Virus record (IMG/VR): IMGVR_UViG_3300046660_000488
Location: 248,001 to 312,000 of that record
DNA from: a virus
Reading direction: 5' to 3' (one strand)
DNA: 64,000 nucleotides
Shown here: in pieces, positions 38 to 3,473 of the stretch
How positions within the stretch are numbered: position 1 is the first letter of the stretch
How the letters are laid out: every line of letters starts with the position of its first letter
Translations under genes and position numbers: made by a program
The notes under the pieces: generated by a model
Told to the model about the DNA's origin: nothing
What the model saw: only the letters and a program-made list of their open reading frames with translations
The model's database searches: none

Positions 38-691
38 TTAGACGCCGAAGTCGGCGGTGGTCGCGAACTGGACGCCAGCGGCGATCAGTTGTTCGGTCAT
101 GGCGTCGTTCGATCCGTCCGGAATGGCCTTGGTCAGGTCTTCCACGAGCACGGTGTCGAAGGTCGCCTCGGTGTTGACGCTCAGGTCGAGCAGGGTGAAG
201 CCGACGCAGTAATTGCGAGCCAGACCCACGACGAACACGCGGCGGATGCCACGGCTGAACAGATAGCCGATCAGGCCGGTCGGGGTGATCTTGTCGTTCT
301 CGTAGGCACCGGAGTAGCTGTCGATGGCCTTGTTCATGCCCTTGCGGACGATGGCCGCCGCCCGCTCGATGGTGTCCACCACGTTCGGGTGGAATTCCGC
401 GCCGGGCGTGCCTTGGACGCAGTGGTCGGGCCACGCGACTTGGTCGCCGTAGGAGACCTGCACGATGGAGAACGGATCGACGCCATGGGTGCTGGCGAAC
501 GAGCTATGACCGGCCGGATGCCAGTCCTGCGTGACGACGATCAGGCCGCCGTTCTTGGCGAAATGGAACGACAGGGCATTGATGCCTGTCATGATCTCGT
601 CGCCTTCGGCCACGGCCAGCGCACCGCCGGGGCAAAAGTCGTTCTGGGGGTCGATGACGATGAGTGCGTCGGTCTTGGAAATCTGGAACAT
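38..691 (-). CDS. pncA: Nicotinamidase (PncA)
   Basis: Cytoplasmic amidohydrolase of 217 residues, predicted to convert nicotinamide to nicotinate plus ammonia. The isochorismatase-fold triad is visible: D14 in VIDPQNDF, K117 in VRKGMNK and C162 in GLARNYCV. Metal ligands of the family are present as D56 and H58 in TQDWHPAGH, and the segment WPDHCVQGTPGAEF is typical of nicotinamidases. The start is supported by GGGAG six bases upstream. It is the last of three codirectional NAD+ salvage genes; its product feeds PncB next door. The length matches bacterial PncA. Confidence is high for the family; the substrate follows from the motifs and the operon. Confidence 0.93.
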   Translation of the reverse strand: MFQISKTDALIVIDPQNDFCPGGALAVAEGDEIMTGINALSFHFAKNGGLIVVTQDWHPAGHSSFASTHGVDPFSIVQVSYGDQVAWPDHCVQGTPGAEFHPNVVDTIERAAAIVRKGMNKAIDSYSGAYENDKITPTGLIGYLFSRGIRRVFVVGLARNYCVGFTLLDLSVNTEATFDTVLVEDLTKAIPDGSNDAMTEQLIAAGVQFATTADFGV

Positions 692-747
692 GGGTTTCTC
701 CCGATTCGGGTTATAGGTTGTCGTTGAAACTGGTCAACGAAATTGGA

Positions 748-2106
748 TCAGACGATGATGGGCGCGCCGTTCAGGCCGTCGTTGCCGAAGACCCGGCGGT
801 AGCGGGCGACTTCATCAGCGGGTCCAGTGGCCTTGTTGTAATTGTCCGACAGCTTGACGCAGGGACGACCATTGGCGCTGTAGGCCTTGCAGACGAGGCT
901 CAGCGGCTTCATGAAGTCGTGACCCTTCGGCGAGCAGCCGTAGAAGTCGTTGGTTGCCAGCGTACCCCAGCCGAACGACTGGCGGATGACGCCCCGGAAG
1001 TGCTTGAAGATCGTCGGGATGTCTTCGCCGTGCGGCTTGTGGTGCGGCAGGTGGACGTCCAGACCATCGCTCGGGATCGCCAGCTTGGTGGCCGGGTCGC
1101 GGCCGTGGGCCTTGTAAAAATCGACGTATTCCTGAACGCCGTCGATGGCTTTCTTGGAATCCGGCCGACCACCGGCCCAGTCCGCCATCCACGTCGGCGC
1201 GTCCTTCAGGAATCCGGTCGTGCCGAAGGTGTCGGGAAGCATGATCCGCAGGGCTTGCGGATGATCTTCCTGCCATTCAGCGCACAGCTTGTACGGGGCG
1301 GCCTTCAGTTCCTCGTCGTCACTGGCCAACGCCGAGTAGACCATCGGAAGCTCGTGGGCGTTCGTGCCCCGAGCCTCGACGTTCAGTTCGGTGGCGAGGT
1401 GAACGTTCGACGTGCCGCCAAAGCGGTCGCCGAGGATTTCCTTCATCGTCTGGACGACGAACCGTTGCCACAGGTAGGAGTGACGACGGCGCGTGCCGAA
1501 GTCCGAGACACTGATGCCTTCAAGCTCAGGCGCCGCCAGAGCTTCGAGCTTGTCGTACAGCTTGACCTTCGCGCGGTCGTACAGACGAACCAGTTCGCTC
1601 TTGTCATGTTCCTTCAACAGCGACCGGGCATAAAGCTCCGAAATCACGGTCAGGCAGTGAAGCTCCCAGTCGGTGCTTTTGACCCAGCGGCCGGGGAACC
1701 GGATGTCGTAGTTGCCGGTGTTGTAGCCGACCGTGCCGTTGTAGGCGCGCTCGTGCTCGATGTGGTACTCGGGGAGCTTCGACGTCCGCAGGAAGTCGAT
1801 GTAATCCTTGCCGAAGATGCCGTCGAGGCCCGAGAAGCGCTGGCCTTGCAGGATGACCAGTTCGGTCGGCTGGTACATGACCGTCCGGGCGTGGTCGAAC
1901 TGTTCCTTGATCTCTTCGATGCTGACGAAGTTGGCCAGCGGAACGTCCGAGCGGTTCTTGAACCGGAATTCGACGTCCACGTTCGGGTTCCGCCGCAGGT
2001 TGAATTGCTGCATCAGCGGCTTGTAGAAGTCGGTGTCCAGACGCGACCGCACGATGGGGTCGAGCTTGAAGTTGTGGTCGTGGGCGCGTTGCGCGAAGTC
2101 AATCAC
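748..2106 (-). CDS. pncB: Nicotinate phosphoribosyltransferase (PncB)
   Basis: 452 residues, GTG start with AGGA upstream. Predicted to join nicotinate and PRPP to give nicotinate mononucleotide. PncB hallmarks are present: DTDFYKPLMQQ near residue 25, DFGTRRRHS near 200, GTSN and GTNAHE shortly after, and a C-terminal VCKAYSANGRPCVKLSD block. These favour PncB over the NAMPT/NadV type, although both share the fold. One odd point: the HDSGDP stretch of cellular PncB aligns here with PDSKKA, so a normally conserved loop has changed. The gene lies between pncA and the NadM-Nudix gene, which would make and use its substrate and product. Confidence 0.9.
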   Translation of the reverse strand: MIDFAQRAHDHNFKLDPIVRSRLDTDFYKPLMQQFNLRRNPNVDVEFRFKNRSDVPLANFVSIEEIKEQFDHARTVMYQPTELVILQGQRFSGLDGIFGKDYIDFLRTSKLPEYHIEHERAYNGTVGYNTGNYDIRFPGRWVKSTDWELHCLTVISELYARSLLKEHDKSELVRLYDRAKVKLYDKLEALAAPELEGISVSDFGTRRRHSYLWQRFVVQTMKEILGDRFGGTSNVHLATELNVEARGTNAHELPMVYSALASDDEELKAAPYKLCAEWQEDHPQALRIMLPDTFGTTGFLKDAPTWMADWAGGRPDSKKAIDGVQEYVDFYKAHGRDPATKLAIPSDGLDVHLPHHKPHGEDIPTIFKHFRGVIRQSFGWGTLATNDFYGCSPKGHDFMKPLSLVCKAYSANGRPCVKLSDNYNKATGPADEVARYRRVFGNDGLNGAPIIV

Positions 2107-2116
2107 GGGTCAGTCC

Positions 2117-3388
2117 TCAGTCTTGCTTCGGCAACATGGCCAGCATGGTTTCGATGATCTGGTAGTGGTCCTCGAACATCAATTCACGCATTTCTTGCAG
2201 AACCTGCTCGATGGGAACCCAGATGGCTTTCTTCGCGTCGTCGGCGGCCTTGACCTTCGGGCGAGCCAGCGCGGCTTGCACGCGGGCCTTATAGTCTTCG
2301 GCGCTCTCGTTCTTCTCCCGCACCGGGACGGTGGGGATCAGGTTGAAGAGGTGACCGTGGGTGATCGTCCGCTTCCGCATCGAGCGGAACGGATTGTCGA
2401 ACACGTGCGTGCCCACGAGAGAACCCTTCAGGATCGACTCGGCGACCTTGATCTTGGTTTCCTCGCGAAGCTCACGGATGGAGCCTTGGACGAGGTATTC
2501 GCCCATTTCGAGGTGGCCGCCCGGCAGAGCCCAGAGGTCTTTGCCCGGACGGTTCTTGCGCTGGATCAGCAGGATGTGGCCGGTGTGGACGACGACGTTG
2601 TCCAGCGTGACGAAGTATTTGTTCCAGCCGCGTCGCGACCCTTCGCTTTCCCAAATCTTGTCGTAGTCGCGATGGAATTCCCACTCGGCGACCATGTCGG
2701 CGTAGGCTTCGGTCAGGCGGAAGGTCTTCAGCCATTGGACGACGGCGTTGGGGATGACCTTGGGGGCCTCGTCGATCAGCCATTGGTCAACGACGGCCGA
2801 ATCCTTGGCGAAGTAGGCCAAGCGCATCGGGGTCGCCGACAGGCAGTCCTTCACGGTGCAGCCCGGCAGGGTCTTCGGCGGAACGTCGATGCTGTCCCAG
2901 CCTTCCGAGGTGAAGGCCTTCAGGTAGAAACTGGAGGCGTCCTTGGAGTGGCCGATCAGGGTGATCTTCGGCTCGTCGAGGCCCACGGCCACGGCGACTT
3001 CACCGGCCTTGCGGACGACGGCCGACGTCCAGCGCGCCATGTTGTTGTAGTCGTAGAGCGGCTTGAAGATCACGCGGGCGACATCTTCCTCCGACAGCAC
3101 TTCGCGCAGGGCCGCCTTGATCATGGCGATCCGCTCGTCGGCGGTGAAGGGAAGGTGATCGGGACGGCGAGCGGTGTCCGCCGAACCGGGGCAGACCATG
3201 ACGAAGCGAGCGTGCTTCAGGGCTTCGAGGATGACGTAGAGGTGGCCGATGTGGAACGGTTGGAACCGTCCGATGAAAACGGCGATGTCGTACAGGAGGC
3301 TGGTCTTGTTGACCCCCTGAGTTTCGGTTGTGACTGGCAGGGTAAGCGTTGCGCGCTCTTCCTGCCCCTTCGGGGGTCTAACGACCAT
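2117..3388 (-). CDS. nadM: Bifunctional NMN adenylyltransferase / Nudix hydrolase (NadM-Nudix)
   Basis: 423-residue two-domain enzyme and first gene of the NAD+ salvage operon. The N-terminal domain has the nucleotidyltransferase signature GRFQPFHIGH (about residues 40-49) and should transfer AMP from ATP to NMN or nicotinate mononucleotide. The C-terminal domain has a Nudix box (about 290-315: GGHLEMGE followed by RELREET), expected to hydrolyse ADP-ribose or a related nucleoside diphosphate; the usual Gly after EE-x is Lys. The same fusion is known from cyanobacteria (slr0787) and vibriophage KVP40 (NatV). I start at 3388, preceded by GGTGGGA; an upstream in-frame ATG at 3403 lacks a ribosome site. 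No NadE is visible, so nicotinate adenine dinucleotide would need host amidation. Confidence 0.92.
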   Translation of the reverse strand: MVVRPPKGQEERATLTLPVTTETQGVNKTSLLYDIAVFIGRFQPFHIGHLYVILEALKHARFVMVCPGSADTARRPDHLPFTADERIAMIKAALREVLSEEDVARVIFKPLYDYNNMARWTSAVVRKAGEVAVAVGLDEPKITLIGHSKDASSFYLKAFTSEGWDSIDVPPKTLPGCTVKDCLSATPMRLAYFAKDSAVVDQWLIDEAPKVIPNAVVQWLKTFRLTEAYADMVAEWEFHRDYDKIWESEGSRRGWNKYFVTLDNVVVHTGHILLIQRKNRPGKDLWALPGGHLEMGEYLVQGSIRELREETKIKVAESILKGSLVGTHVFDNPFRSMRKRTITHGHLFNLIPTVPVREKNESAEDYKARVQAALARPKVKAADDAKKAIWVPIEQVLQEMRELMFEDHYQIIETMLAMLPKQD

Positions 3389-3443
3389 AGTGAATCCCAC
3401 CATGTAATGTCACGAGCAGGATCAGCCCCGCAGCGTGTAAACC

Positions 3444-3473
3444 TATTTAGACACGGTGTTAACCCGCAGTCAA
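3444..3473 (-). promoter_or_regulatory. Promoter of the NAD+ salvage operon
   Basis: On the minus strand TTGACT (3468-3473) is followed after 18 bases by TAAATA (3444-3449), about 55 bases before the NadM-Nudix start. It fits a sigma-70 promoter. The -10 element CTAAATAGG also resembles the gp55-type late promoter, so use early, late or both is possible. Confidence 0.55.

Follow-up and report, generated by a model that had tools for sequence, protein, structure and literature searches.

Anti-phage immunity often ends in the depletion of nicotinamide adenine dinucleotide (NAD+), and the phage counter-measures covered in open-access papers use NadV or rejoin ADP-ribose directly. What purpose, then, might be served by phage genes that lead through nicotinate instead, and do they form a complete route? 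Genes of this kind lie at one edge of a 64,000-nucleotide stretch of DNA (the window), which spans bases 248001-312000 of the 578,292-bp virus record IMGVR_UViG_3300046660_000488. With a synthetase gene just beyond that edge they make up a full set for deamidating NAD+ salvage, i.e., a nicotinamidase plus the Preiss-Handler pathway, and we consider it likely that this phage-encoded route holds or rebuilds the NAD+ pool during infection, including against NAD+-cleaving (NADase-type) defences. The record is that of a genuine jumbo myovirus, as the same contig carries structural phage genes, with T4-like baseplate wedge and tail fibre genes alongside SbcC/SbcD-like genes. Families were assigned with Pfam, NCBIfam (scores read against the cut-offs of the models) and PHROG profiles, and structures were compared using the Protein Data Bank and Foldseek.

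A five-gene NAD+ cluster across the window edge

The initial annotation placed NadM-Nudix, PncB and PncA in this order on the minus strand of positions 38-3473, and family-profile matches bear out the three genes, their order and their strand. The limits of the region have to be redrawn, as 3404-3473 is upstream sequence rather than gene and the operon does not end at position 38 but continues past the window edge. In full, the minus-strand cluster runs NadM-Nudix, PncB, PncA, a protein with a GatB/YqeY tail, and NadE.

PncA, a nicotinamidase of 217 amino acids (38-691, minus strand; Isochorismatase 1.4e-18, NCBIfam PncA 6.4e-51), matches solved nicotinamidases in the structure database. Its catalytic D14 and C162 and metal-binding D56, H58 and H90 are kept in all 28 phage relatives and K117 in 27 of them, and with these residues the protein has the D-K-C catalytic triad and metal site of a nicotinamidase. 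PncB, a nicotinate phosphoribosyltransferase of 452 amino acids (748-2106, minus strand; NAPRTase 5.9e-31), starts with a GTG codon preceded by a GAGGA motif, and the histidine of its GTNAHE motif, H251, is kept in 45 of 46 relatives. The six Protein Data Bank chains that it matches at E<1e-5 are NAPRTases without exception, led by 1ybe, whereas the nicotinamide-type PHROG is matched at 1.4e-6 only, which points to a nicotinate-type rather than a nicotinamide-type phosphoribosyltransferase. Absence from the genome was judged by searches made one family at a time. PncB is the single match to the NAPRTase family (PF04095) in the genome, so that the genome is without NadV and a NadV gene elsewhere in it was rejected as a candidate. 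The lack of a second PF04095 match suggests that Namat of NAD+ reconstitution pathway 1 (NARP1) is absent too; the other NARP1 enzyme, Adps, was not searched for. The structure matches of PncB and the lack of NadV uphold the earlier proposal that the route is deamidating and differs from the phage routes built on NadV-NadM or on ADP-ribose.

The third enzyme, NadM-Nudix (2117-3403, minus strand; CTP_transf_like 1.9e-11, NUDIX 8.2e-16, NCBIfam NadM-Nudix 1.9e-92), joins a mononucleotide adenylyltransferase and a probable ADP-ribose pyrophosphatase in one protein. It aligns over nearly its full length to both solved NadM-Nudix enzymes, 2qjo and 2qjt, and retains the motifs GRFQPFHxGH and SATxxR together with a Nudix box whose glutamates resemble those of the same two structures; the NadM motifs are present in most of 12 phage relatives. 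Translation probably begins at an inner ATG at 3388 rather than at 3403, because a GGTGGGA motif precedes it and the nearest relative starts there.

The initial annotation held that NadE would have to come from the host, unless the NadM domain or another phage gene solved this, and proposed a genome search for it. That search found NadE as the last gene of the same cluster, which removes the need for the host enzyme. Between PncA and NadE lies a 361-amino-acid gene (minus strand; L002 10942-12027), which begins eleven bases past the PncA stop and has its first 26 bases at window positions 1-26. Its GatB/YqeY match covers the last ~50 residues, its structure model is too poor for use (predicted local distance difference test, pLDDT, 49), and among the relatives checked only contig L003 has a clear counterpart, conserved at ~50-55%. 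NadE begins 4 nucleotides after the stop codon of this gene and lies fully outside the window, 1.1-2.8 kb past its edge (minus strand; L002 9201-10937; G000:C1:245200-246936 of the record). It is a glutamine-dependent enzyme of 578 amino acids, its N-terminal domain a glutaminase and its C-terminal domain a synthetase; it is close to structures 5kha and 3n05 and scores 632.7 bits against an NCBI NAD+ synthase cut-off of 479. The glutaminase residues E43, K120 and C157 are invariant among the 31 two-domain relatives, and ~50 of 52 relatives keep the SGGxDS loop; the genome thus encodes its own NAD synthetase. Family membership and intact active sites suggest that the operon enzymes are likely active. 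In every operon gene the third codon position differs from the nearest relative, L003, about twice as often as the second, as expected for purifying selection.

Upstream of NadM is an intergenic leader (3404-3498, minus strand), the likely start of the NAD operon, in which a weak T4-late-like TCTAAATA at 3444-3451 is, by consensus match only, a candidate promoter. A GC-rich hairpin followed by a T run at 3499-3530 (minus strand; z = -3.84 vs shuffles) is a likely terminator between the operon and a regulator gene of the Ros/MucR type. As this strong hairpin and T run separate the two genes, transcription of the NAD operon probably starts from a promoter of its own. The hairpin was not listed by a simple terminator scan, and scans of this kind and for sigma-70 promoters yielded no more than shuffled sequence.

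The proposed route and its neighbourhood

The individual reactions are established biochemistry of these enzyme families. PncA would convert nicotinamide to nicotinate, PncB would join nicotinate to phosphoribosyl pyrophosphate (PRPP) to give nicotinate mononucleotide (NaMN), NadM would adenylate NaMN with ATP to nicotinate adenine dinucleotide (NaAD), and the two-domain NadE would amidate NaAD to NAD+ with glutamine and ATP. The Nudix domain would in turn split ADP-ribose into AMP and ribose-5-phosphate. The idea that ADP-ribose is recycled in this way, already present in the initial annotation, is strengthened by a PRPP synthetase (Prs) of the phage itself (322381-323286, ~71 kb from the operon; 452 bits against an NCBI cut-off of 297), which may return ribose-5-phosphate as PRPP to the PncB step. 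With Nudix and Prs, both products of NAD+ cleavage, nicotinamide and ADP-ribose, could on paper be used again. We regard the enzymatic route as well supported.

NADase defences release precisely nicotinamide and ADP-ribose (PMC12774641). As these products are what the gene set could use, and as genes for ADP-ribose handling are linked to it, a counter-defence role is plausible, and we propose it with moderate confidence. The Ros/MucR-type regulator (3557-4228, minus strand; PF05443 2.1e-34) lies upstream of the operon and occupies the same site in four of five related contigs (L003, L004, L005 and L007). Its divergent neighbour (4426-4908, plus strand; PF08010 4.9e-38) is a T4 gp30.3-family protein, and the pair stands upstream of the operon in four of the five relatives. 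The gp30.3-family protein probably has a NADAR fold, i.e., it is ADP-ribose glycosidase-like, judging by a model of moderate quality (pLDDT 67) which Foldseek matches best to YbiA (E 1.2e-3, probability 1.00) and to two NADAR structures. Further along are a macro-domain-like protein with a probable part in ADP-ribose handling (8464-8991, plus strand; PHROG 335 2.4e-30, weak macro-domain structure matches) and a DraG-type ADP-ribosylglycohydrolase (9596-10561, minus strand; PF03747 1.7e-34). The L004 relative of the macro-like protein matches Pfam Macro at 1.5e-6, and a macro domain is found near the operon in two relatives. That NADAR-like and macro-domain genes stay linked to the operon in relatives is in line with a counter-defence role. 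The window also codes for a protein with a RelA/SpoT-like region (11726-12607; 3.3e-11), possibly concerned with alarmone hydrolysis, and for two arginine tRNAs on the minus strand (13664-13739 and 14068-14142, anticodons CCT and TCT), their genes separated by a few hundred bases.

Occurrence in other phages and origin

The set is not confined to one genome. Five other virus contigs (L003-L007) carry NadM, PncB, PncA and, further on, NadE in identical order at 35-73% identity overall (NadE 57-73%, PncB 47-65%, NadM 35-59%). Scanning viral contigs for PncB returned no loci with a single-sequence query and 37 with an alignment query. In a profile survey of viral loci, all four enzymes fell within one locus of <18 kb in 17 distinct records, namely the phage of the window, L003-L007, L050, L052, L054, L057, L058, L059, L060, L063, L067, L071 and L014, with weak NadM matches (E about 1e-5 to 1e-9) in the more distant of them. 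All 12 PncB-bearing phage records tested contain NadE, and each has one NAPRTase-family gene and no NadV.

Isolated phages are among the carriers. Sinorhizobium phage Phosso (L014; PV764938) has an ammonia-type NadE, and its Nudix and NadM are separate genes. Agrobacterium phage Atu_ph07 (MF403008) encodes PncA, PncB, NadM, Nudix and NadE, with PncB and NadE annotated far apart; its PncA (AUZ95018) and NadM (AUZ95019) are annotated as hypothetical proteins and adjoin the Nudix gene (L012 3401-5127, AUZ95018-AUZ95020). In Phosso (11617-12264) and in L005 (7018-7662) the usual PncA is replaced by a divergent isochorismatase-fold PncA with the insert EKGVFNMWEED. That parts have been exchanged while the pathway was retained argues for selection on the route itself. 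In the 735-kb phage LR756501.1 (L210, L015), PncA, a weak NadM-like gene, NadE and PncB lie within ~8 kb (423202-431429), with Prs 18 kb beyond them. The PncB of this phage falls in a different phage-only clade, which suggests that the route was assembled more than once.

A maximum-likelihood tree places the window's PncB in a ten-member phage-only clade (support 95/97). Two clades lie near it: one is likewise phage-only and includes Phosso and Atu_ph07 (97/89), the other is bacterial and consists mainly of Alphaproteobacteria. A third phage-only group, of 17 members, stands at a distance. This position in phage-only clades speaks against recent capture from a host. The Ros/MucR regulator and the relatives among rhizobial phages make an alphaproteobacterial host a fair guess.

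Competing explanations and known systems

Several points weigh against a salvage route that serves counter-defence. Hosts generally own a NAD+ pathway. The PncA score of 173.2 bits is 0.8 bits below the NCBIfam cut-off of 174, and PncB, despite a match to PRK05321 at 5.1e-110, reaches 368 bits where the cut-off is 379. Prs was found in only three of 12 related records, so self-supply of PRPP is not general. The phage encodes a CobB-type Sir2 deacetylase (G000:C1:185284-185805; L191 1477-2193, plus strand), which presumably uses up NAD+ and sets nicotinamide free, and this makes a purely counter-defensive role less convincing. Lastly, the step from NaMN to NaAD is not certain, since NadM-type enzymes can prefer nicotinamide mononucleotide (NMN) over NaMN, as in Francisella tularensis (PMC3376133).

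The Sir2 gene also speaks for the strongest rival, which we hold to be a real but lesser possibility, namely that the operon gives the phage more NAD(H) for its long and costly replication and its own NAD+ users, with no particular anti-defence role. It is in keeping with such a housekeeping boost that the genome contains translation genes, with methionyl-tRNA synthetase (MetG) near the operon (L002 4854-6563) and a tryptophanyl-tRNA-synthetase-like (TrpS-like) open reading frame adjoining Prs (L022 244-1395), and that in KVP40 the production of progeny is said to benefit from NAD+ salvage (PMC11097641). However, the genome gave no match to an NAD+-dependent DNA ligase, so that this enzyme was rejected as a reason for the operon, and the conserved linkage to NADAR-like and macro genes, with the DraG-type gene nearby, points instead to conflict over NAD+ and ADP-ribose.

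The order of steps is a separate matter. It is rather unlikely, in our view, that the enzymes work in the Francisella order, in which NadE would amidate NaMN to NMN and NadM would then adenylate NMN to NAD+, bypassing NaAD. In its favour, the second-best solved relative of the phage NadM is 2qjt, the enzyme of F. tularensis. In that species NadM pairs with a NadE adapted as an NMN synthetase, but the bifunctional NadM of Acinetobacter has a conventional NAD synthetase as its partner (PMC3376133). The enzyme of the phage, a two-domain glutamine-type NadE near 5kha and 3n05, scores as an NAD+ synthase; this conventional type favours the order through NaAD, although grouping with NAD+ synthases would not by itself settle a preference for NaAD or NaMN.

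It seems improbable that clearance of ADP-ribose comes first, with the Nudix, NADAR, macro and DraG proteins mainly destroying ADP-ribose signals and the synthesis genes secondary. The clustering of ADP-ribose-processing genes within 10 kb would suit such a role, but four synthesis enzymes with intact active sites stay together across widely diverged phages, and Phosso has retained both Nudix and NadM as separate genes. That the genes were recently captured from a host and do nothing for the phage, or that the contig is bacterial and wrongly filed as viral, can be dismissed almost entirely: some collection matches are indeed bacterial (L061, and the records of 'Acinetobacter phage MD-2021a', L016 and L017, CAKLQH020000044 and CAKLQH020000008, which carry only bacterial chromosomal genes in the stretches concerned, are apparently mislabelled and were set aside as phage examples), but misassignment is contradicted by the structural genes on the contig and by the isolated phages with the same set, and capture by the phage-only PncB clades.

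The deamidating salvage favoured here shares features with several known systems. KVP40-type NadV-NadM salvage (NARP2 in later work) likewise rebuilds NAD+ from nicotinamide with a NadM-Nudix adenylyltransferase, but does so in two steps, NadV forming NMN from nicotinamide and PRPP, whereas here PncA, PncB and NadE replace NadV. NARP1 (Adps plus Namat, the latter described with a Nampt-like core) also starts from what NAD+-depleting defences leave behind, nicotinamide and ADP-ribose (PMC12774641); it keeps ADP-ribose whole with two dedicated enzymes, whereas in the route proposed here Nudix would break it down and Prs would bring it back in, all with ordinary enzymes of biosynthesis. Salvage in bacteria by nicotinamidase and the Preiss-Handler steps, especially in the Acinetobacter network, has the same families and the same pairing of NadM with a conventional NadE (PMC3376133), while in the phage they form one operon, with NadM fused to Nudix and NADAR-like and MucR genes at its flank. 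Phosso and Atu_ph07 encode the same PncA, PncB, NadM, Nudix and NadE families, but differ in the NadE type and split Nudix/NadM of the former and the dispersed genes of the latter.

The enzymes treated in two comparative surveys of NAD+ systems in phages are of the NadV, NadM and NadR types (PMC9503650; PMC7824862), and the phages of this set contradict the generalization of the 2022 survey that every NadM phage has NadV (PMC9503650). Where it mentions NAD, the Atu_ph07 paper reports Nudix, NadR and PnuC and not a deamidating route (PMC6102473), a study of snow viruses lists nadE among auxiliary genes with NAMPT, not with PncA/PncB (PMC11097641), and another jumbo phage has a single nicotinate phosphoribosyltransferase annotation (PMC8504454). 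The open-access literature yielded no account of a phage with the complete deamidating route; subscription papers, including the original NARP paper, were outside this search and priority is not certain. We see about even chances that this is a third, self-sufficient phage route of NAD+ reconstitution, widespread in giant phages and overlooked, which makes NAD+ from nicotinamide and ADP-ribose independently of NadV and host NAD+ enzymes and so blunts NAD+-depleting immunity. If true, the complete deamidating route would be an additional phage answer built from ordinary biosynthetic enzymes and, being present in isolated phages, directly testable. Surveys of counter-defence that look for NadV or Namat will overlook phages of this type.

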